Shown piece by piece: positions 8,857 to 21,182 of a stretch of DNA of 64,000 nucleotides; positions within the stretch are counted from its first letter, which is position 1; every line of letters starts with the position of its first letter. This DNA comes from Herbidospora sakaeratensis (GTDB lineage: Bacteria > Actinomycetota > Actinomycetes > Streptosporangiales > Streptosporangiaceae). The position numbers and the translations under genes were made by a program. Below the pieces are notes generated by a model. It was not told where the DNA came from. It saw nothing but the letters and a program-made list of their open reading frames with translations, and did not search any database. The stretch is taken from assembly GCF_001570525.1 (NCBI RefSeq), contig NZ_BBXC01000011.1:1-64000 (forward strand), given 5' to 3'.

Positions 8857-8929
8857 CGGTTTCGGCGCGCTTCTGAAGGTGCCGGTGGGGAGCCTGACAA
8901 TCCCTATGGCGGAAAGGAGGCCCGGCCCC

Positions 8930-10099
8930 GTGCGCGGCTGGACGCCCCTAATTGATGATCGAACACCCGTGAGCCCCGCAGGACGGGTCCAACCCGGGCC
9001 CTTCCAGGACGACTTCGGCAACCCATTACACGGCCTTTACGCCGGACAACGGGCGGAAAGCGAGTTCGGCGCCTGGACCCGGTTACTGGCTGTCTGGCAC
9101 GGATACCGGATCTGGGATTTCACCGGACCCGCCATGAATGGATTCAGAAGTTCTCTAGTGAGCCCGTGGAACGAGATCCTTTCACAGGGGTTACTAAGAG
9201 ATCTCGCCGACCCGTCTCCTTACGACGGAGCCGCATGGAGTGAACGCTGGATCGCCGGCGCCCTGCTCTCCGGGCGCAAGCCGTTCGGCCGGTTCACGCT
9301 TCCCCTCGACGAGGCCCAGGCGTGGTGCATCCGGGCCCGGAGAGTGGGGCTGGAGTATCACCGCGAACGCGTCGACGGCAACGCCCTGCACATCACCGCG
9401 GGCCGCGAGGAGACGTACGGGGAACTGTTCGAACTCGACGCGCTCGTCGCCTACTACCGCGACGTGCTGCCCCCCGAAGCGGCCGAGACGGCCGCGTGGG
9501 GCCTGCTGTCGCACCGCAAGGAATCACCCGCCAACCACACCTTCGCCGGCATGGACGCCTTCACCGAGCTCCCCAGGGCCGTGCGCGGCCTGACCCTCGG
9601 CTACCCGCCGCTGGCCACCGCCCGCCGGATCCTCCTGGAGAGCGGCGGCGAGAACGAGATCGAGTTCCCCGACGTGCCGCTCGACGCCCCCCGACCCGAG
9701 ACGGTCCCGCCCGACGACGTGCCCGGCTGCGACCACGACCACCCCGTGCCCCGCTTCGAGAACCACGACGACCTGGTCAAGGCGTGTGAGCCGCTCACCG
9801 ACCTGGTGTCCTACTACTGGCAGCTCGACCGCGAGTTGTCGATGTTCGCGCCGCGCATCTCGGGCGTCTACCTGGCCGACTATCCCGAAGCCCTGATCGC
9901 CGCGTTCGAGGCGCACGCCCGTGCGGCCTCCACCGACCGCTATCCGCGCGCCGAGGCCGTCTTCGCGCACCTGTGCTGCGTGCTGCGGCATCTGGGGCGC
10001 GAGCCCGAGGACCTGCTGCGCGGGCTCAGACCGCCATCACTGCGAGCGCCCGGTCCAGGGCCGCTCGACCGCCTTCGGGGTCGTCGCACCGGATCCTGA
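8930..10099 (+). CDS. Unrecognised 389-aa protein
   Basis: I do not recognise a family. The protein is soluble, acidic and rich in Trp, Tyr and Pro, with no signal peptide or transmembrane segment. The N-terminal part holds FQDDFGNPLHGLYAGQ and WHGYRIWDFTGP; a middle region of about residues 90-230 is enzyme-like in composition, and the C-terminal part is helical (SYYWQLDRELSMFAPR). GTG at 8930 is chosen because AAAGGAGG ends 9 nt upstream, the strongest ribosome site in this part of the window. The last 74 bp run antisense into the end of the convergent XRE gene. Confidence 0.7.
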   Translation: MRGWTPLIDDRTPVSPAGRVQPGPFQDDFGNPLHGLYAGQRAESEFGAWTRLLAVWHGYRIWDFTGPAMNGFRSSLVSPWNEILSQGLLRDLADPSPYDGAAWSERWIAGALLSGRKPFGRFTLPLDEAQAWCIRARRVGLEYHRERVDGNALHITAGREETYGELFELDALVAYYRDVLPPEAAETAAWGLLSHRKESPANHTFAGMDAFTELPRAVRGLTLGYPPLATARRILLESGGENEIEFPDVPLDAPRPETVPPDDVPGCDHDHPVPRFENHDDLVKACEPLTDLVSYYWQLDRELSMFAPRISGVYLADYPEALIAAFEAHARAASTDRYPRAEAVFAHLCCVLRHLGREPEDLLRGLRPPSLRAPGPGPLDRLRGRRTGS

Positions 10100-11390
10100 G
10101 GTCGGCGACCCGCATCCACATCGCCGAGGCGCGCTCGCGGGAGGTCATCGTCTCCCAGCGCTCGGCGGCGGCCACGAGGGCCTGTTCGGCCTCCCAGGTC
10201 TCGCCGAGCCGCAGGTGCGCCTCGGCGATGACCTCGGAGGCGTGGACGTGCAGCAGCGCGGCGGTCTCCCCGACGGCCTTGACGACCTCGTTGGCGCGGT
10301 CGATCGCCTGGTGCGGATCGCCCCTGACGATGTCGGCGCGGGCCAGCGCGAGGGCGCAGAACCCCCGGTCGACGATCCCGGCCGCCGCGTCGGTCAGCTC
10401 GGCCTGGGCGCGGCTCAGGACCGGGAAGAGCTCCTCCACCGTCGCCGCGTCGGCCCTGATGAGTTCCCCGGCCATGGTCGCCCGCAGCCGGGCCAGGCCG
10501 AGCGGGTCGTGGTAGCCCGCGCCATACAGAGATAGGGCCTGCTCGAAAAGGCCCCGGGCGGTCGGCGCTAATCCCGACCTCGCCGCCGCGATTCCGTTCT
10601 GCCAAGCGACCGAAATACGCCCGCGGGGCTCGCCGAGCTCGATTGCGGCACTCGTCAGCTCGCTCAGCAGCAGATGCAATCGCAGATGCGAACCATGTCC
10701 GTGTTCTTCCGGATGAGCGTGCAGGTCGACCTGCTCTCCGTACGTGGCGACCAGGGCGCATCCGAGCTCGATCACGCTGGAGGTCCAGCCGGCCGCGCCG
10801 ATCTCGCGGTCGAGCGCGCTCTCGCCGACGGCCACGCTGGCCGAAATGTCACCCGCTTCGAGGTGGCAGCGGCAGAGCACGGTCGCCAGCCGGACGCGGT
10901 AGTCGACGAACTGCGTCCAGTGCCCGCTCGACCGGGCCAGCGACTCGGAGGGCTCGTCGAGGTGGGAGTCGAGCAGCCGCGTCACGCGGGTGATCACCTG
11001 GGGCAGGTCGCCCTCGCGTTCGGCCGCCTGGGCCTGGCCGAGCTCGGCCTGCCGCCAGAGGTCGGGGACCATGCCCAGCGACGGCTGCCGGAGCAGCGCC
11101 GCGTAGCGGTCTCTCGCCTCGGGGAACCGGCCTTCGGCCAGTGCGCCGCCCGCCTTGGCCGCTTCGGCCCGCAGGCCCGCGATCGTGTGCGGGTCAAGTC
11201 CGTCGGTCAACCACAGGGGGGAGCATTGGAGCCCTCGCGCGATGATCCTGATCATGGCCGCGGTCGGTTCGAGGTCTCCGCTTTCAATCCGTTCGATCGA
11301 GTCGGCATCCAGTTCGGACGTCACTTGGAATGGCAACAACCCTCTCTGCAGGCGAGCGGCTCGAACGCGTTGAGCGATCTTCTCGGGCAC
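10026..11390 (-). CDS. XRE-type HTH regulator with TPR-like repeats
   Basis: A 454-aa regulator. Residues 4-65 are an XRE-like helix-turn-helix (IAQRVRAARLQRGLL ... ERIESGDLEPTAAMIRIIA), followed by about 380 residues of alpha-helical tandem repeats resembling TPRs. Such proteins often sense a peptide or partner through the repeats. GTG at 11390 follows GAGGAG at good spacing. It converges on the unknown 389-aa gene with a 74-bp overlap and is divergent from the large HTH-repeat gene. A possible promoter (TTGACG, about 18 bp, ATTTAC) lies near 11415-11444. Confidence 0.8.
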   Translation of the reverse strand: MPEKIAQRVRAARLQRGLLPFQVTSELDADSIERIESGDLEPTAAMIRIIARGLQCSPLWLTDGLDPHTIAGLRAEAAKAGGALAEGRFPEARDRYAALLRQPSLGMVPDLWRQAELGQAQAAEREGDLPQVITRVTRLLDSHLDEPSESLARSSGHWTQFVDYRVRLATVLCRCHLEAGDISASVAVGESALDREIGAAGWTSSVIELGCALVATYGEQVDLHAHPEEHGHGSHLRLHLLLSELTSAAIELGEPRGRISVAWQNGIAAARSGLAPTARGLFEQALSLYGAGYHDPLGLARLRATMAGELIRADAATVEELFPVLSRAQAELTDAAAGIVDRGFCALALARADIVRGDPHQAIDRANEVVKAVGETAALLHVHASEVIAEAHLRLGETWEAEQALVAAAERWETMTSRERASAMWMRVADLRIRCDDPEGGRAALDRALAVMAV

Positions 11391-11744
11391 TGTGCTCCTC
11401 GCCTAACACGGTGCGTAAATCGACGCCTCGATCAAGTGCGTCAAACGGAGCATAGACGTGACAGAGCAACTTGACCACCAGCAAACGTGTTCACGGGACT
11501 AATCAGTGCAGGTTTCTCAGGTCATGCCCATCTCGTCTGGGCCGAAAGCCTGGTTACGGACGGCGGATACCCGCCCACTGCGGCACTGATCTGGGCGCCT
11601 CCCCGGGACGGGCCCCATTTGTGTCAGGTTTCCTGACACGATTATCGAGACGAATGTTTGCATACTGGCCGAATTCGTGTTATTTGGTCGCACGTGGATC
11701 ATTACACGGTCATTGACAAAGATTTGACAAGCCGTCCGCATCGA
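11391..11744. promoter_or_regulatory. Divergent control region, no gene
   Basis: A lower-GC intergenic stretch between the XRE gene (minus) and the large HTH-repeat gene (plus). It contains the GTGTCAGG palindrome at 11621-11639 and two TTGACA hexamers close to 11712-11730; no convincing -10 box was matched to them. Confidence 0.5.
11621..11639. promoter_or_regulatory. Perfect 19-bp operator-like palindrome
   Basis: GTGTCAGG (11621-11628), spacer TTT, CCTGACAC (11632-11639): an 8-bp perfect inverted repeat about 105 bp upstream of the large HTH-repeat gene. It is not followed by a T-run, so a protein-binding site is more likely than a terminator. TGTCAG recurs downstream of the 18.7-kb promoter. 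Confidence 0.55.
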
Positions 11745-14700
11745 ATGCGGGATGTGGACGGACGGGCGTTCCTCGCGTCCCTCCGGACGGCCGCCGTGAC
11801 CCGCGTGGAGGCGGGCGAGCGGGTCGCCCAGGTGAGCCGGAACATGGGTGTGTCCCGATCCTCGGTCTACGAATGGCTGCGCCAGGCCCGCTCCGGGCCG
11901 GAGAAGCTGCAGGCCAGCCCTCTGCAGGGACGGCCGTCGGCGTTGTCGCCCGACGGGCTGCACGAACTGGCGGCCGCGCTGCTGGCCGGCCCGGAGTCAG
12001 CGGGCTTGACAGGACGGTTGTGGACGCGGGAACTCGTAAACGAGCTCGTCTCGCGTGACCACGGCGTCTCGCTGACGCTCACCAGCATCGGGCGTCTGCT
12101 GCGTTCACTCGGTTTATGGCCGCGGCACTCTCTCGTCACGTGGCCCGACGGTTCGGCCCGTTTGTGGAAACAGCGTTACGCGTACATAAAAGAGAAAGCA
12201 CGGGAACAGGACGCGCTTCTGATGCGCGGGGGACTCGTCGACGTCGGCGCGCTCCTCCCCCGATCGTCGGCCCCGGCCGCGCCTTTCGGCTTCCACCTCG
12301 CCTACGCGCTGATCCCCGGCGGGCCGCTGATGTTCCGCGCCTATTCCGGGCCCGCGAGCGCGGCGACGTTCCTCGACTTCGCCGCCGGGCTGGTGGCCGA
12401 GACCGGCCGTCCCACCTGCCTCATCACGGCCGGCCATCCCGTCTTCGACCTCGAAGAGTGCGCGCGTGGCCTGGCCGGGCTGCCGCTGACCGTCTGGGTG
12501 CGCGGCGACGGCGACGCCCGCGAGATCCGGCCGGGGCCCGCGCCGGCCACCGCCTCGGCGCCCGACCTGCGGCCCGCCGTGCTCGGCGGGCCGTCCACCG
12601 GCCTGTGGACGATGGAGCGCCTGGCCGGCCGGCTGGGCGCGCTTTTCGGTCATCCGGTCAGTACCGGCGACGTCGAAGTCCTGTTGTCCGCGCAGAACCT
12701 GTGGCCCGAGGGGCCGCTGCCGCCCGCGCTGCCGCCGGGGTCGCCCGCCGTCGGCCGCTGGTGCCACGACGTGCTGCCGCTGTTCCAGGCCGACGCGGGG
12801 GCGGGCGCGGTCGTGCGCTTCGTCCAGGAGGTGCCGCTGCCCGGCGGCCGCACCCTCCTGCTCGCCGTCTCCCCCGGCCACGACCGCCGCTTCGCCTGGT
12901 ACGAGGAGGCCCGCTACCAGGGCCGCATGCGCGCCTCGACGCTGGCCGACTTCACCCGGCGGCTCCGCGAGGACACCGAAGAGCCGTTGTGCCTGGTCGT
13001 CACCGACGACTCCGGCTGGCACTCCCGCGACCTCGACGCCACCGCCACGACGGTCGGCGACGCCTTCTACTGCACCTGGGCCGACGGGTGCGGCGAACGC
13101 GTCTGGCGGGTGCCCGAACGCGACCCCGTCCAGGCGCTCTGCCGCCGCCACTACCACCAGGGCCGAGGGCCCGCCCCCGACGGGACCGCCTCACTGGAGA
13201 TGGAGCACCCCCCGCGCGGCCCGATCGGCACGGCCGACCGCCAGGTGCGGATCGCCGCCGCCCGGGAACGCGCCCGTGAGCGACCCCTGTCGGCGGGAGG
13301 CCGGTTGCGCGAGCTCGTCCTGGCGGGCCCGCCCGCCCTGCTGACCATGCGGACCCTCACCGCCCTGCTGGGCCGCGCCTACGGCCGCCCCGTGGACGCC
13401 GACCGGGCGCTCGCCGTGTTGCGCGACGAAGGGTTGTGGCCCGAGGACCTCCCCACGGTCGAGCCCGGCCGCTGGGAGCACGAGACGCTGCCCCTCCACC
13501 TCGCGCACGCGGGCGCCGGCGCGGCCGTCCGGTTCGTCGCCGAGGCGCGCCTCGGGGGCGACCTGAGCCTCCTGGTCGCGCTCGACCGCGCCGGGGAGAC
13601 CCGGTTCGCCTGGTATCCGCAGGCGCGTTACCGGGGGCGGATGCGCGCGACCACGCTCGTCTCCTTCGCCGGACTGCTGCTCGACGACGCCAACGGGCCG
13701 CTCTGCCTGGTCGCCGCCGACGAGGGCGGGTGGAAGTCGAAGGAGCTGGCCGCCGCGCTGGCCCGGCGGCCCGTCCTGGTCGTCGCGGCCGGGGTGCCCT
13801 ACCTGTGCGTCTGGCCGACCGGGTGCGGCAACCGCGCCGTCATGGGCGACCAGTGCCGCACCCACGCGCGCCGGTCGCGGCGGCTGGCCGTCCACGGGGC
13901 GCGCTCAGGGCCTCTCCTGGACGCCGTGCGCGCCGCGTCGGCCGACCTCGCCTCCGCCCGCGGGGCGGGCGAGACGGCCCGGGAGGGGTTGCGGGCGGCG
14001 CTGACCGCCCTGCACGCGGCCGGGGCCCGCGACGCCGCTCTGGTCGCCGCCTGGACGGGACTGCCGGAGCACGAGATCCCCTTCGTGTCGGAACCGCTCG
14101 ACCGCGAGCACGTGGAGGCGCTGCGCGCGTGCGTGCGGACCGGGGTGACCAGCCTGGCCGTCCTCGTGCGGGTGAGCGGGCTGCCCGAAGGGCGGGTCAG
14201 GGCGCTCCGGCGGGAGGTGCGGCTGCGGGCGCGGGCCCAGGAGGCCGCGTCGCTGGCGCGGATCGCCGACTCCGCCGCCGCCCTCCGCGACCGGCGGGAC
14301 GAGCACGGCGACGCCGTCCGCCGCGCCTGGCGCGAGGGGCACCGCACGGTGACGACGATGTGCGAGGTGGCGCGGATCAGCCCGTACACGCTGGCCCGGA
14401 TCCTCGAAGGGCTCGGCGCCGACCTGCTGCTGCCGCCGCGCGGCCCCGGCAGGGGCGCGCTGGCCGAGGTGGCCCGCGCCGCGGTCCGGCTCGGCGAGGC
14501 GCGGGCGGCCCGCGACGACGAGGTCCGCGCGGCGCTCCGCGCCGGGGTCAACGTCGTCGGCCTGCTCGCGGAGGCCGGCGGGATGACCCAGGCCCGGGTG
14601 CGGCGGCTGCGGCCCGACCCCACCCGCGAGACGGCCCTGGCGGCCCTCGCGGCGAGCCGGGCCGAACTGGACCGGCGGACGGCGGGCCTGGCGCGGGCCT

Positions 14701-14939
14701 GCCGTCCGCTGCTGGACCGGGTGGCCGGGAGGCTGGCCGCCGTCGCCGAGGCCGCTCACGCCGAGGCGCTGGCCACCGTCGCCCGCGACGCGGCCGTGCG
14801 GGCGGCCTGGGCGGGCGGAGTCGGCGACCCGGCCGTGCTGGCCGTCTGCGCGGGCACCGACTCCCGCACGGTCACGGCGTTGGTCGGCGCGGCAGCGGCA
14901 GCGGACGTCCCGGGTGCTTCTTCGCATACCAGGACGTGA
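11745..14939 (+). CDS. Large multi-HTH protein with degenerate IS630-like modules and Cys/His fingers
   Basis: A 1064-aa protein of unknown function. Residues 15-48 are a helix-turn-helix (QVSRNMGVSRSSVYEWL), like the N terminus of IS630-family transposases. A module of winged helix ending GLWP plus an RNase-H-like strand pattern then occurs three times (about 91-255, 288-440, 532-680); copies 2 and 3 align closely (FAWY-x-ARY-GRMRA, PLCLV). Copies 2 and 3 retain a DNAxxH-like trace (DDSGWHSRDL, DEGGWKSKEL), but I find no complete DDE triad. Each ends in a probable zinc finger: C443/C449/C466/H469 and C688/C694/C704/H707. Residues 751-1050 hold about five HTH-like repeats. The start is uncertain (ATG 11745; GTG 11694 and TTG 11658 are alternatives). 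Confidence 0.75.
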   Translation: MRDVDGRAFLASLRTAAVTRVEAGERVAQVSRNMGVSRSSVYEWLRQARSGPEKLQASPLQGRPSALSPDGLHELAAALLAGPESAGLTGRLWTRELVNELVSRDHGVSLTLTSIGRLLRSLGLWPRHSLVTWPDGSARLWKQRYAYIKEKAREQDALLMRGGLVDVGALLPRSSAPAAPFGFHLAYALIPGGPLMFRAYSGPASAATFLDFAAGLVAETGRPTCLITAGHPVFDLEECARGLAGLPLTVWVRGDGDAREIRPGPAPATASAPDLRPAVLGGPSTGLWTMERLAGRLGALFGHPVSTGDVEVLLSAQNLWPEGPLPPALPPGSPAVGRWCHDVLPLFQADAGAGAVVRFVQEVPLPGGRTLLLAVSPGHDRRFAWYEEARYQGRMRASTLADFTRRLREDTEEPLCLVVTDDSGWHSRDLDATATTVGDAFYCTWADGCGERVWRVPERDPVQALCRRHYHQGRGPAPDGTASLEMEHPPRGPIGTADRQVRIAAARERARERPLSAGGRLRELVLAGPPALLTMRTLTALLGRAYGRPVDADRALAVLRDEGLWPEDLPTVEPGRWEHETLPLHLAHAGAGAAVRFVAEARLGGDLSLLVALDRAGETRFAWYPQARYRGRMRATTLVSFAGLLLDDANGPLCLVAADEGGWKSKELAAALARRPVLVVAAGVPYLCVWPTGCGNRAVMGDQCRTHARRSRRLAVHGARSGPLLDAVRAASADLASARGAGETAREGLRAALTALHAAGARDAALVAAWTGLPEHEIPFVSEPLDREHVEALRACVRTGVTSLAVLVRVSGLPEGRVRALRREVRLRARAQEAASLARIADSAAALRDRRDEHGDAVRRAWREGHRTVTTMCEVARISPYTLARILEGLGADLLLPPRGPGRGALAEVARAAVRLGEARAARDDEVRAALRAGVNVVGLLAEAGGMTQARVRRLRPDPTRETALAALAASRAELDRRTAGLARACRPLLDRVAGRLAAVAEAAHAEALATVARDAAVRAAWAGGVGDPAVLAVCAGTDSRTVTALVGAAAAADVPGASSHTRT

Positions 14940-15131: not shown

Positions 15132-16352
15132 CTAGGCGGCGAACATGCCGGTCTGTGCGATGAGCCGGAGCAGGGCCAGGTCGTCGACGTCCATGTCCTG
15201 CGCGTACGCGTCGAACAACTCCCCGGCGCGCCTGCGGTTGACCTCGCGGGTGTGCCGGGCCGTCCAGCCGAGCGGCGGGCGCAGCAGCAGCGACCACAGC
15301 GGGAGCAGCCGCGCGCCGCGCCGCAGCTTGTCGGTGAACCCGCCGACGCCGAAGTCGATCTCCTGCAGGTGCCGGGCCAGGCCCATCCTGACCGGGGCGT
15401 GCGACTGCAGGACCGGCTGCTCGGCGAAGTGGCCGGTGCGCCGGGGGTCGAGCGTGATGCGGTGGGCGACCAGGCCGTCGCCGTGCTGGAAGACCAGCCG
15501 GTAGCCGATCGTGGCGCCGTTGTGCGTGCAGAGGATCACGTGGGCCGAGGAGGCCAGCGGCGAGGCGAGGTAGCGGCGCAGCTCGCGCTCGGCCGCCGTC
15601 GCCTCCTTGGGCGTGGGGTGCAGGCGGGCCAGGTCGGGCAGCAGGGCGGCCGTCAGCGGCAGCACCTTGATGGCCCGCGCGCCGTCGGCGAACACCCGTT
15701 CCTCGCGCCGGGCCAGCGTCCGGCTCGACCGCTGCAGCGCGCCCAGGTGCTCCTCGAAGGTGGCGCCCTGGATCCGCATGACCGTCCGCGCGTGGGTCAG
15801 GATGAGGGGCGCGCGCGGGAAGTAGCGGGTCAGCCGGCCGGCCGTGGGGCCGTCGAGGTAGAGCACGGCGGCGCTGCCGTCGTCGGGCATGGCGTACTGG
15901 ACGGCCCGCGCCCACAGGTGCTCGTCGTCCGGGTGGCAGACCGGGACCGTGCGGTATCCGGCCGTCGCGCCGATGAGCGTCACCCGCCCCCACGCCTCGG
16001 GTGTGCGCAACCGCCCGCCCCGCAACATCGACCCGAACAGCCGGGCCGGGTCGAGCATCGGCCGGGCGGGCGCCCGGTCGTAGTGGCTGACCGGCACCAC
16101 GGTCCGCAACGACGGCCGCCCCGCGCCGCCGACCCAGCCGAGGACCACCCCGTGCCAGGCCGCCGCGTCGGGGTCGGCGTGCGCCTGGTGCCAGGCGCGG
16201 CCGTTGAAGAACCCCGCCGCGGTACGGGGGGCGAGCTCGTCCCACCGGGCCGGAGCCGACCGGAGGGGCGCGGTGGTCAGCCGCACCTCCTCGACGCCCG
16301 TCCTCTTCGGCGCCTCCTCGTAGAAGGAGACGGCCGCCGTACCGGCCCTCAC
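15132..16352 (-). CDS. GNAT/FemAB-like acyltransferase
   Basis: A 406-aa protein resembling the large GNAT-fold acyltransferases of the BioF2-like/FemAB-related group. An N-terminal domain carries GFFNGRAWHQAH and RPMLDPARLFG; the C-terminal half carries a GNAT-like core (LGALQRSSRTLARREERVF ... VILCTHNGATIGYRLVF ... QEIDFGVGGFTDKLRRG). Such enzymes transfer an acyl or aminoacyl group from CoA or tRNA. GTG at 16352 overlaps the ATP-grasp-like stop as GTGA (16349-16352), so translation is coupled. With an ATP-grasp-like partner this suggests amide-bond chemistry, which is inference only. Confidence 0.65.
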   Translation of the reverse strand: MRAGTAAVSFYEEAPKRTGVEEVRLTTAPLRSAPARWDELAPRTAAGFFNGRAWHQAHADPDAAAWHGVVLGWVGGAGRPSLRTVVPVSHYDRAPARPMLDPARLFGSMLRGGRLRTPEAWGRVTLIGATAGYRTVPVCHPDDEHLWARAVQYAMPDDGSAAVLYLDGPTAGRLTRYFPRAPLILTHARTVMRIQGATFEEHLGALQRSSRTLARREERVFADGARAIKVLPLTAALLPDLARLHPTPKEATAAERELRRYLASPLASSAHVILCTHNGATIGYRLVFQHGDGLVAHRITLDPRRTGHFAEQPVLQSHAPVRMGLARHLQEIDFGVGGFTDKLRRGARLLPLWSLLLRPPLGWTARHTREVNRRRAGELFDAYAQDMDVDDLALLRLIAQTGMFAA

Positions 16353-18403
16353 CGAACGGCCTTCGCCATGCTGGGCGGCATGACCGGCCGGTCGGCGGCC
16401 TTCTCGGGCGCGTCGTCGGGCTCGGCTTCGGGAGAGGGCTGCGGCGCGGGTTGCGGGGGCAGCGGCGTGGTGAACGGCGTCAGCGCGGGCAACGGCTCCG
16501 ACCGGTCCTGCGGCGCGGCGTCCTCCACGGGCTCCTGCTTGTCCTTCGCCGCCTGGCGGAGCACCGCTTGACGCGCCGCGTTCTCCACGGGCAGCGAGGT
16601 CGGCTGCGACGTCTCGGGCGGCGCCGGCATCGGGTTCGGCGTCGGGTTCGGCATCGGGTTCGGCAGGGGCCCGGGCCGGGTGTGCGCGCCCGGGACCGAG
16701 GGCAGCGGGGGGACGTACTGCGGCGTGGCGGTCTGCACCGGCAGCGGGGTCGAATAGGGCCTCGACGCGGGCAGCGGCTCGGGCGTGGAGTGCGGCGCGG
16801 AGGCCGGCAACGGCTGCGGCGTCGTGTGCATCGGCGTGGCCGGCCGCGGCTGCGGAATCGCGGTCCGGGCGGGCTGCGCGGTCGGCTGCGGGGCCGCCGT
16901 CTGGGCGGGCTGGACCACCGGCTGAGGCGCCGGGGTCTGCGCCGCCTGGGCCACGGGCTGAGGCGCCGGCTGGGGTGCCGGGATCTGCGCCTGTTGCGGA
17001 ACCGAGGTCTGCACCGGTGGGAGGGCCGAGAGCCGGGTCGGCTCCGGTTCCTGGGTCAGGGCCGGGGGGATGGTCGGCTGGAGGTCGTAGGCCGGTTCCG
17101 GTTCGCGGATTCGCTGGATCGACGGCGGCAGGAAGGGCCACTCGGCCGGGATGTACAGATGGGCGGCGCGCATGTGGGCGGCCCTCAGGTGGGCGGCGCG
17201 CAGGGCGCACTCGCGGGGGTTGCGGCCCGTGACCACGGCCCGGCCGCCGGGCTCGTAGCGTTCGAGCCAGCCCGCGTACGGCAGGTCGTCGTCGAGGTCG
17301 GCCAGGCGGGGGGCGCGGATGTCGACCGGGGTGACGATCGCGGCGCGGCGGTGGCGGTGCCGGGCGGCCTCCGGTTCGCGGCCGCAGCTGATGGCCGCGG
17401 CGGCGGCGGGCAGGTTGACCCCGGTGACCAGCTCGACGACGTGGCACAGCAGCGGGTCGGGCGGTCCCGGACGCAGGCCGGTCACGATGGCCGCGTCGTC
17501 GGACAGCAGCAGGCTGACGCCGCAGTGCCCGTCCTGGACGCCGACCGAGGACACCGCGGTCGCGACGACCGCCGCCATGTCGGCGTCGTCGAGCAGCGGG
17601 TCGGCGGCGTCGACGATGTCGTACTCGCCGAAGCGGCGGATCACCGCGACGGCGATCGGCGCGCCCGAACGGACCCAGCACTCCACTGTCACCGGTGCGC
17701 CCACCGGAACCTCCTCCACGAGAACGGCGCCGCTGTCGCCCGTGGCGGCCTGGGCGCCGGCGAATCCGGCGGGGATGCCGGCGAGATCGTCCACCCGCCG
17801 CCGGGACAGGTTCCCTCCGGGGGTCCGGGCGACGAACAGGACGGGGCAGCCGATGAGCTGGGCGGCCCGGTCGGCCTCTTCGGGTGAGACGGCGAGGATC
17901 GAGCGCGGGGTGCGCATGCCCCCGGCGGCGAGCAGGACCTGGGTGCTGACGGGGTCGGCGCTGCCGATGGCGGCGGTCTCCCCGAACGACGGCAGTCCGA
18001 GCCGCACGGCGGCCGCCGCGGCGACCTCCTGGTAGCGCGGCTCCCAGCAGATGACGCCGTCGACGCGGCGGGAGAAGCCCTCGACGGCGGCGGCGACCGC
18101 GGACGGGGTCATGGCCGGGACCCTGAGCCGGTCGGTGTGGCCGGAGCGGCCGGCGGAGACGTCGTCGGTGTCGACGAGCACGACGTCGAAGCCGCCCTGA
18201 CGGACCTGGGCCAGCAGCGACGCGGCGTCCTCGGAGCCGCCGGAACCCACCAGGGCCACGGTGCCGCGGTGGGGGGTGGGGATGCGCGCGCCGCCGCGGT
18301 GCGGCCAGGGAACCCGGCGGGCGAGCGCCCGGCCGGTCACGACGCGACGCCTGGTCAGTCCGTCCCTTTCGCCGTTCATAACGAACAGGTATTGCACGTT
18401 CAC
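16349..18403 (-). CDS. Degenerate ATP-grasp-like protein with long Pro/Gln-rich tail
   Basis: A 684-aa protein. Residues 48-400 follow the layout of ATP-grasp carboxylate-amine ligases: an N-terminal Rossmann-like lobe (VALVGSGG), an ATP-grasp segment (LLAAGGMRTPRSIL, then CPVLFVARTPGG), VLVEEVPVGAPVTVE and GVSLLLSDDAA. Two key elements look lost: the ATP-binding Lys of the PVVVKP strand reads VLFVAR, and the metal-binding ExNxRPGG reads VTGLRPGPP (308-315). RAAH occurs three times at about 402-415. Residues 425-684 are low-complexity Pro/Gln/Ala/Thr. GTG at 18403 has a partial AAAGGCGG site; GTG 18397 and ATG 18379 are alternatives. Confidence 0.65.
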   Translation of the reverse strand: MNVQYLFVMNGERDGLTRRRVVTGRALARRVPWPHRGGARIPTPHRGTVALVGSGGSEDAASLLAQVRQGGFDVVLVDTDDVSAGRSGHTDRLRVPAMTPSAVAAAVEGFSRRVDGVICWEPRYQEVAAAAAVRLGLPSFGETAAIGSADPVSTQVLLAAGGMRTPRSILAVSPEEADRAAQLIGCPVLFVARTPGGNLSRRRVDDLAGIPAGFAGAQAATGDSGAVLVEEVPVGAPVTVECWVRSGAPIAVAVIRRFGEYDIVDAADPLLDDADMAAVVATAVSSVGVQDGHCGVSLLLSDDAAIVTGLRPGPPDPLLCHVVELVTGVNLPAAAAAISCGREPEAARHRHRRAAIVTPVDIRAPRLADLDDDLPYAGWLERYEPGGRAVVTGRNPRECALRAAHLRAAHMRAAHLYIPAEWPFLPPSIQRIREPEPAYDLQPTIPPALTQEPEPTRLSALPPVQTSVPQQAQIPAPQPAPQPVAQAAQTPAPQPVVQPAQTAAPQPTAQPARTAIPQPRPATPMHTTPQPLPASAPHSTPEPLPASRPYSTPLPVQTATPQYVPPLPSVPGAHTRPGPLPNPMPNPTPNPMPAPPETSQPTSLPVENAARQAVLRQAAKDKQEPVEDAAPQDRSEPLPALTPFTTPLPPQPAPQPSPEAEPDDAPEKAADRPVMPPSMAKAVR

Positions 18404-18771: not shown

Positions 18772-19416
18772 ATGAGCATCCCGGCCGACGCCGTGACCCG
18801 AATGGTCCTCACCAACGACGGATCGACGACGCAATTGCTTTCCGCGTTACTCGGCGTACCGCTGCGCGTCCGTGTGCTCGACCAGCGGGGGCTGCCGTCC
18901 TCGCAAGTGCGGCCCCGCGCGGCCGTCAAGGCACTCGTGGCCGGCGAGGGCGACGCACCGCTCGTCGTCCGTAGATCGCAACTCGTCCGCCCGGACGGCA
19001 GGGCCATCTCGGTCAACACGGTGATCATGACGTCGAGTCATCTGGTCGCCCGCAGCATCGTCGACGGCGGGGGCACCCCCCTCGGCCGGGTGCTGCAGGG
19101 GGCCGTCGAACAGCGACGGGTGATCACCGAGACCGGCTGCCGGATGAGCGAATGGGGCGGTGTCGGCCGGCCCAGCGTCTACCGCTCGTATCTCGTCTTC
19201 GCTGGAGGCAGGCCATTCCTCCACGTCGAAGAGCAGTTCCACCCCGCGATCGTGACGCCCATCAGGGACCTCCCCCTCCTGGAGGAGGACCCCCGCCCGT
19301 GGCCCACGAAGAAACGTCCAGCGCACCCCCGCCGAGGACCCGCGATGCAGACGTACATCAGCGACACCCTGGTCTCCCTCCCCCAACCCACACCCGCCCG
19401 CAAGCCGGCCGAATGA
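18772..19416 (+). CDS. Chorismate-lyase-like protein
   Basis: A 214-aa protein resembling the chorismate pyruvate-lyase (UbiC/DUF98) fold, which makes 4-hydroxybenzoate and pyruvate from chorismate. Family features visible are MVLTNDGSTTQLLSALLG at the start, VVRRSQLVRPDG (Arg pair 67-68), GTPLG near 101-105, Arg116 and the late HVEEQF acid. A proline-rich C-terminal extension is unusual. AAAGGAGGG lies 5-12 nt before the ATG. The stop overlaps the next gene as ATGA, so enzyme and exporter are coupled. Activity on chorismate is inferred from family only. Confidence 0.7.
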   Translation: MSIPADAVTRMVLTNDGSTTQLLSALLGVPLRVRVLDQRGLPSSQVRPRAAVKALVAGEGDAPLVVRRSQLVRPDGRAISVNTVIMTSSHLVARSIVDGGGTPLGRVLQGAVEQRRVITETGCRMSEWGGVGRPSVYRSYLVFAGGRPFLHVEEQFHPAIVTPIRDLPLLEEDPRPWPTKKRPAHPRRGPAMQTYISDTLVSLPQPTPARKPAE

Positions 19417-21182
19417 GCGTTCTCACCCAGCGGCGCGGTGACGACGGCCTTCCCCCGTTGCTCACCGACCCGCCCCGCCGCCTTCAGGGGCGCGGACGAC
19501 CGGCGCCCACCTCGCACAAGCGCAAGACCACCTACCTGCCCGTCGTCGTGTGCGCCGGCATCATGGGCATCACCATGGCCGACACGCTCGCCGCCACCCT
19601 CGGCGTGCCGCAGCTCGCCGAGAGCGGCTTCGGGCCCAAGTCACCGATCGACACCCAGTGGCTGCTGACCGCCTTCGCCCTCCCGTACGCGGCGCTGCTG
19701 CCCGTCGGGGGGCGGCTCGCCGACGTGTTCGGCCCGCGGCGGCTGCTCACCATCGGACTGTCCCTGTTCTCCCTCGCGGCGTTCTGCACCGTCATCACGC
19801 CCCTGTGGAGCCTGCTGCTCGCCGCACGGGCCGCGCAGGGGCTCGGCGCGGCCCTGATGGTGCCCGCCTCGCTGGCGATGCTGCTGGCGACGGTGCCCAC
19901 CACCCGCAGAGCCGCCGCCATCGGCGTCTGGAGCGCGTCGACCGGCGTCGCCGGCACGCTCATGTACGCCCTCGGCGGCTGGTTCAGCCAGAACATGGAG
20001 ATCGGCTGGCGCGTGCTGTTCGTGCCCAGCGCGTTCCTCACCCTGCTCCTGCTGACGTTGTCGATGACGCTCCCCCGGCCGCCCCACACCCGTGGCGCGG
20101 TGCCCGACATCATCGGCTGCCTCCTGCTGGGCGCCGCCCTGGCGATGCTCACCTGGGCGATCGTCCAGTTCCCCCGCCGGGGCTGGGACCCGTACGTCAT
20201 CGGCGCGGTGTCCGGGGGGACGCTGATGCTGCTGGCGACGATGGCCCGCTCGGCCCACCACAAGGCCCCCGCCATCGACCTCGGTCTGTGGCGCAAGGGC
20301 CGCTTCGCCCTCGCCGGAACCCTCTCGGCCCTGTACGGCCTGGTCTCCCTCCCGATCCTGGTGATCATGCCGCTGTTCCTGGGCCAGGCGATGTTCCGCT
20401 CGCCGGAGCTGATCGGCGCCGCCATCGCGCCCAACGCGGCCGGTGTCCTCGTCGGCAGCGTCATCGCCGGCGGGCTGATCAAGCGCCGGGGCCCGCGCGT
20501 GGTCATCTACCTGGGCGCGGTCATCATCGCCGGAAGCTGCATCGGCCTCCTGCAACTGGTCATCGGCACCGGCAGGCCGCTCGACGTCCTGCAGGTGTGG
20601 TTGCCGCTGAACGCCGCGCTGGGCCTGGGCTTCGGCCTGCTCAACGCGGGCTCGTCGGCCGCCGCCGCGCTGACCGCCGGCCCGGAGCGTTACGCCACCG
20701 CGGTCGGCGCGACCATGTCCGTCCGCCAGGTGGGCGGCACGATCGGCATCGCCGTCACGGTGGTCCTGCTCGAACGCCCCCTGGTGGAGGCGCCGATGCC
20801 GGGCTACACGAGCGTCATCCTCGGGTCACTGGCCCTCGCGGTCTTCGCGGGCTGCCTGGGCCTGTTCTTCGGCGCCGCCAAACCCCCGGCCCCGGCCCGC
20901 TCCGCCAAACGCGCCCCGGACCACCCGGAACCCCGCCCGACCCCACGCCCCACACCACGCCCCGCCCCCCGCCCCGACCGTCCGGTCGCCCGCACGCCCG
21001 TCCACCCGCCGATCCCCCTGCCGCGGCGGGCCGTCCCCATGTCGGCCCCCATGTCGACCCCCATGTCCGCGCCGGTGGGCGACGAGGTCGCCGCCGAGAT
21101 GCTGCGCACCCTCAAGGAGACGACCAACCGCATCAACCTCATCGCCGACGTCCTGCTGGACCAGCAGCGACCGACGCGGTGA
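19413..21182 (+). CDS. MFS exporter (DHA2-like) with proline-rich tail
   Basis: A 589-aa permease. About 14 helices lie between residues 40 and 490; GGRLADVFGPRR is the motif-A loop, and an export-type motif C is suggested by VWSASTGVAGTLMYALGG. After the last helix comes a roughly 100-residue cytosolic tail with PRPTPRP and MSAPMSTPMSAP repeats, ending in a short amphipathic helix (ETTNRINLIADVLLDQQ). The start is set by the ATGA overlap with the chorismate-lyase-like gene (19413-19416). Probably exports the product of the adjacent genes. Confidence 0.82.
   Translation: MSVLTQRRGDDGLPPLLTDPPRRLQGRGRPAPTSHKRKTTYLPVVVCAGIMGITMADTLAATLGVPQLAESGFGPKSPIDTQWLLTAFALPYAALLPVGGRLADVFGPRRLLTIGLSLFSLAAFCTVITPLWSLLLAARAAQGLGAALMVPASLAMLLATVPTTRRAAAIGVWSASTGVAGTLMYALGGWFSQNMEIGWRVLFVPSAFLTLLLLTLSMTLPRPPHTRGAVPDIIGCLLLGAALAMLTWAIVQFPRRGWDPYVIGAVSGGTLMLLATMARSAHHKAPAIDLGLWRKGRFALAGTLSALYGLVSLPILVIMPLFLGQAMFRSPELIGAAIAPNAAGVLVGSVIAGGLIKRRGPRVVIYLGAVIIAGSCIGLLQLVIGTGRPLDVLQVWLPLNAALGLGFGLLNAGSSAAAALTAGPERYATAVGATMSVRQVGGTIGIAVTVVLLERPLVEAPMPGYTSVILGSLALAVFAGCLGLFFGAAKPPAPARSAKRAPDHPEPRPTPRPTPRPAPRPDRPVARTPVHPPIPLPRRAVPMSAPMSTPMSAPVGDEVAAEMLRTLKETTNRINLIADVLLDQQRPTR

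Follow-up and report, generated by a model that had tools for sequence, protein, structure and literature searches.

A triplicated IS630 transposase derivative with a degenerate active site and Cys/His fingers, probably a DNA-binding protein of Herbidospora

The stretch of DNA analyzed here, from the soil actinomycete Herbidospora sakaeratensis (64,000 nucleotides of contig NZ_BBXC01000011.1, hereafter the window) encodes a protein that we consider most likely to be a domesticated, catalytically dead, and internally duplicated IS630 transposase, probably acting as a multivalent, sequence-specific DNA-binding protein that regulates or packages its own locus. The protein opens with an IS630-type helix-turn-helix (HTH) domain, continues with three copies of a unit composed of a winged helix and an RNase-H-like core, carries a Cys/His finger after each of copies 2 and 3, and ends in a row of C-terminal repeats. 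The features are collected in Table 1.

The frame extending from a TTG codon at 11658 to 14939 is a real gene (GC3 0.93). It contains an ATG codon at 11745, from which residue numbers are counted throughout. Translation most likely begins at the GTG codon at 11694, given that the coding similarity shared with the orthologue from NEAU-GS5 (L043) extends back to it, and the product is about 1064-1081 amino acids long. The gene has one match in its own genome and so is not a repeated element. Neither within the left flank nor within the right flank, each taken alone, was a convincing pair of inverted repeats detected.

Table 1. Features of the triplicated gene, its neighborhood in the window, and finger-array relatives (positions prefixed with L refer to other loci)
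Feature	Position	Strand	Evidence or remark
Partner protein "HGY", W-H/N-G-x-R-L/I-W motif	8879..10099	+	Co-occurrence in other genera
Divergent XRE-like HTH + TPR protein, probable co-located regulator	10026..11390	-	Weak HTH_3/TPR
Perfect palindrome GTGTCAGG-TTT-CCTGACAC, candidate operator upstream of gene	11621..11639		0-3 changes in Herbidospora
Whole triplicated IS630-derived gene	11694..14939	+	ORF, GC3 0.93, orthologues in 7/7 congeners
N-terminal homeodomain-like HTH, IS630/Tc1 type, residues 9-61	11769..11927	+	Pfam above cut-offs
Copy 1, winged helix (HTH_33) + degenerate RNase-H-like core, residues 67-255	11943..12509	+	Pfam, hhalign
Copy 2, winged helix + degenerate core + finger, residues 275-475	12567..13169	+	hhalign
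Copy 2 finger, C-x5-C-x16-C-x2-H, residues 443-469	13071..13151	+	Invariant Cys/His
Copy 3, winged helix + degenerate core + finger, residues 515-710	13287..13874	+	AlphaFold, hhalign
Copy 3 finger, C-x5-C-x9-C-x2-H, residues 688-707	13806..13865	+	Invariant Cys/His
About five repeats, long helix + HTH-like triplet, residues 720-1054	13902..14906	+	Self-alignment
Conserved neighbor, acyltransferase-like by eye	15132..16352	-	Syntenic in L043 at 56%
ATP-grasp-like ligase	16349..18403	-	Relatives near family members in g28 and L043
Chorismate-pyruvate-lyase-like protein	18772..19416	+	Pfam Rv2949c-like just above cut-off; relative in g28
MFS efflux transporter	19413..21182	+	Pfam MFS_1 3e-43
g28 finger-array protein	L073:9636-11183	-	Seven fingers + HTH-like repeats
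g28 finger-array protein	L075:8337-9911		Seven fingers + HTH-like repeats
g28 finger-array protein	L076:9503-10873		Seven fingers + HTH-like repeats

Each copy aligned by hhalign with a profile of nine IS630-type transposases, from which the orthologue L008 and two degenerate sequences were left out (E-values of 2.5e-16, 1.7e-10, and 9.5e-9 for copies 1, 2, and 3, respectively). Reversed and column-shuffled control profiles gave E-values of 0.04 or worse. A tblastn search of plasmids with the triplicated protein matched IS630 transposases alone, at its N-terminal part (residues 1-233, E 4e-15). These comparisons indicate that the protein belongs to the IS630 transposases by descent. Searches with the same protein gave no match among phage sequences and nothing useful among PDB sequences, and a PADLOC search for a defense function returned no credible match.

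When aligned with IS630, the first catalytic acid was found to be substituted in copies 1, 2, and 3, and the third catalytic region, LNPxE in IS630, was missing from every copy. The initial annotation was therefore correct that no copy holds a complete DDE triad. Its trace of a DNAxxH motif proved to be a loose resemblance, with MAFFT placing the IS630 Asp one column earlier. All 14 instances of copies 2 and 3 share an unchanged acidic residue in the PLCLVVTD/PLCLVAAD strand. An active IS630 transposase was considered as an assignment and rejected, the DDE/DDD triad being incomplete and the match to NCBIfam NF033545 scoring 68.4 bits against a cut-off of 100.

The three copies are also recognizably related to one another. 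Using profiles of seven homologues, copy 2 aligned with copy 3 at an hhalign E-value of 3.2e-59 and 43% identity (segments 268-482 and 515-722), as had been proposed from inspection of the translation, and copy 1 matched copies 3 and 2 at 5.3e-8 and 1.2e-5, respectively. All three alignments span the winged helix plus the core, and the suggested three-fold repeat thus holds for every pair of segments at an E-value of 1.2e-5 or better. In a tree of the copies, 2 and 3 group together and copy 1 is separate, with full support. The winged helix does occur three times as described earlier, but copy 2 ends in NLWP rather than in the GLWP ascribed to all three. In the H. cretacea orthologue (L045), copy 3 (9531-10145) is missing six winged-helix residues.

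Modeled by AlphaFold with 14 sequences, copy 3 reached a pLDDT of 83.7. Following the winged helix, its predicted secondary structure elements run b-b-b-a-b-a-b, which is the RNase-H-like order, and searches with Foldseek and VIA-align matched the model to retroviral integrase and RNase H domains. The best match was to the retroviral integrase core, with a Z-score of 8.4 over 85 residues at 2.1 Å. The RNase-H-like fold anticipated for the protein is thus predicted for copy 3 from its own model, and for copies 1 and 2 from a full-length model of low overall confidence (pLDDT 60.8), for which the top fold match was Mos1 transposase. A Z-score near 8 can reflect a common arrangement, and so the claim of descent is carried by the sequence homology.

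In place of the lost third catalytic region, copies 2 and 3 end in fingers with exactly the C-x5-C-x(9-16)-C-x2-H spacings originally noted. The putative ligands are Cys-443, Cys-449, Cys-466, and His-469 in copy 2 and Cys-688, Cys-694, Cys-704, and His-707 in copy 3. All are unchanged in seven aligned homologues, one of them at 52% identity, and this conserved pattern suggests that the fingers may bind zinc. No Pfam model reached its cut-off at the fingers of the triplicated protein. Those of the g28 relatives (described below) match Zf_WRKY19, although below its cut-off, and a profile of the g28 fingers lands on the correct finger positions of the triplicated protein, without significance. 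The NEAU-GS5 orthologue (L043:8001-11471) has an additional CxxxxC...CxxC finger after copy 3.

The N-terminal HTH passes the Pfam cut-offs of HTH_29, HTH_23, HTH_28, and HTH_Tnp_IS630. Together with the winged helices, it makes DNA binding by the protein likely. At the other end, the chain continues for some 350 residues beyond position 13870, at which the initial annotation had stopped, and this additional stretch is itself repetitive. Its best internal match scored 62, whereas the highest-scoring of 60 shuffled sequences reached 45. A helix pattern is visible across these C-terminal repeats in the full-length model, in which most block means for this part range from 55 to 90. No Pfam model reaches its cut-off in the repeats, which are related to the C terminus of the Streptosporangiaceae protein L024. 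The earlier account was incomplete in leaving out both these HTH-like repeats and the conserved neighborhood of the gene.

In that neighborhood, neither the partner protein nor the acyltransferase-like neighbor has a match in Pfam or NCBIfam. The XRE-like protein has HTH_3 and TPR matches that fall below cut-off and a counterpart in L043 at 56%. The ATP-grasp-like ligase is a relative of L-amino-acid-ligase-type proteins in g28, where the related protein matches CPSase_L_D2 and LAL_C2. The MFS transporter has an EmrB-type match below cut-off, and its relatives lie near family members in g5, g28, and g91. The palindrome upstream of the triplicated gene is the sole site in the genome within one mismatch, and its chance probability in this stretch, about 0.03, makes it mildly improbable. 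It is not kept in L043, and the palindromes found upstream of relatives revealed no shared operator. The palindrome may belong to the divergent XRE-like gene.

Relatives in other Streptosporangiaceae genera occupy the same neighborhood with the partner gene and have HTH-like C-terminal repeats like those of the triplicated protein. Unlike it, they carry one IS630-derived core or none, such a core being found in L024 and L052 (single core) and in L074. L024, a protein of 505 amino acids with a single core, has relatives in genomes G010 and G114, in G101 and G138, and in five genomes of genus g28. In the g28 proteins, of which three were read completely, the core gives way to seven C-x3/4-C-x9-C-x2-H fingers, followed by HTH-like repeats. 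The partner protein was found in 24 of 201 genomes of the family Streptosporangiaceae, 17 of which also have a member of the protein family, and the partner gene is present in every genome with L024 relatives. Wherever the contig allows, it adjoins the family gene or is separated from it by one small regulator gene; adjacency in G124 and G150 was read from match coordinates, and in G138 the two genes are on different contigs. In the loci fetched, an MFS transporter is near, and the ATP-grasp ligase and chorismate-lyase-like protein are present in some. The shared partner, transporter, ligase, and lyase-like genes point to a conserved, specialized-metabolism-like locus. We suggest tentatively, and with somewhat less than even confidence, that this locus is controlled in several genera by fast-evolving regulators in which IS630 cores and finger arrays interchange on a chassis of HTH-like repeats, the Herbidospora protein, which combines three dead cores with two fingers, being the extreme.

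A 318-residue degenerate IS630-like gene product without the LNPxE region was observed in G332 (L079:8977-9930, + strand), with a relative in G280. It is closely homologous to copy 1 (34% over 251 amino acids), its gene sits between fatty-acid-synthesis genes and dnaJ-grpE-dnaK, and it is possibly another domesticated transposase.

The large number of candidate DNA-binding modules along the chain, and the elongated coiled-coil C terminus predicted by the model, would also suit a nucleoid-associated or architectural protein whose HTH-like modules coat or bridge DNA with little specificity, its gene neighborhood being incidental. We regard this as unlikely, since the narrow distribution (one genus and close kin) and the tight linkage to the partner fit a local role better. 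Less probable still is an accessory protein that serves the metabolic locus and has lost DNA binding, with the pseudo-cores and helical repeats forming a scaffold for partner and ligase. Loss of catalysis, a partner that is a constant neighbor, and the long helical repeats would be in keeping with such a role, but no part of the protein is as well conserved as the N-terminal HTH, which several HTH models recognize.

The triplicated gene was present in all seven Herbidospora species searched, where the orthologues occupy the same family of loci, and in one other Streptosporangiaceae genus (NEAU-GS5, L043). Two of the seven are interrupted by contig ends inside the gene (H. solisilvae, L042, and H. 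galbida, L044), which perhaps mark a GC-rich stretch that is hard to assemble. Every complete orthologue keeps the open reading frame. Within Herbidospora the dN/dS ratio, calculated by NG86 and approximate in these high-GC genomes, was 0.30-0.33 for the gene, with the N-terminal HTH the most constrained part (0.04-0.13) and the C-terminal part at 0.44-0.55. A decaying transposase, i.e. a dead IS630 copy that happened to be duplicated and is drifting to loss, would explain the lost triad and the faster evolution of the C-terminal part but is highly improbable in view of the intact frames, the low dN/dS overall and especially in the HTH, the invariant finger residues, and the synteny conserved in seven species and another genus. 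Rather, the gene is fixed, syntenic, under purifying selection, and apparently non-mobile, and its domestication is well supported. IS630 homology of each copy, loss of the triad, and purifying selection across the genus together justify describing it as a domesticated, duplicated transposase, in agreement with the initial annotation.

For the preferred reading, a domesticated DNA-binding protein, we envisage that an IS630 transposase lost catalysis and underwent internal duplication, with copies 2 and 3 sharing one ancestor and copy 1 keeping the original N terminus. Two Cys/His fingers would have been gained where the third catalytic region was, along with the C-terminal coiled-coil and HTH-like row. 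In the present-day protein, DNA would be read by the N-terminal HTH together with the winged helices, and the pseudo-RNase-H cores could serve as a scaffold or dimer platform. The fingers might stabilize the shortened cores or make further contacts with DNA, and several DNA sites may be held together by the C-terminal repeats. The domains and the neighborhood suggest a regulatory role and its targets, namely that the protein would regulate or locally package its own conserved locus, comprising the partner, the XRE-like regulator, the ATP-grasp ligase, the chorismate-lyase-like protein, and the efflux pump. Autoregulation would be possible via the palindrome. Retention beside the same neighbor genes suggests that a selfish element has been rebuilt into a gene regulator. 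If so, the protein shows bacteria building large multi-domain DNA-binding proteins out of mobile elements, and its gene marks a conserved, unstudied, specialized-metabolism-like locus of the Streptosporangiaceae.

With IS630 elements, which belong to the IS630-Tc1-mariner superfamily, the protein shares the N-terminal HTH, the winged helix, and the RNase-H-like core in the same order. Unlike them, it has no DDE/DDD triad or LNPxE region and has added two further copies of the unit, fingers, and C-terminal repeats. Eukaryotes offer well-known examples of domesticated DDE transposases, CENP-B and SETMAR among them; to our knowledge, few have been described in bacteria. RAYTs, of the Y1 HUH transposase family, are likewise element-derived proteins kept by the host. 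Both RAYTs and TldR proteins differ from the triplicated protein in family (Y1 HUH and TnpB nuclease, respectively) and are not known to have an internal triplication or such fingers. In the literature searched, we found no description of the triplicated protein and no domesticated transposase with a triplicated unit and fingers replacing the active site. TldR proteins have been described as TnpB-related transcription factors that are guided by RNA (PMC13418256). Like the triplicated protein, they are element-derived and kept as host or phage genes, with a regulatory role in that account. ALP1 and ALP2 are described as domesticated eukaryotic transposases (PMC7282668). ALP1/ALP2, CENP-B, and SETMAR resemble the triplicated protein in that transposase domains are reused by the host after transposition was lost, and differ from it in being eukaryotic, in deriving from other transposase families, and, as far as is known, in not being triplicated.
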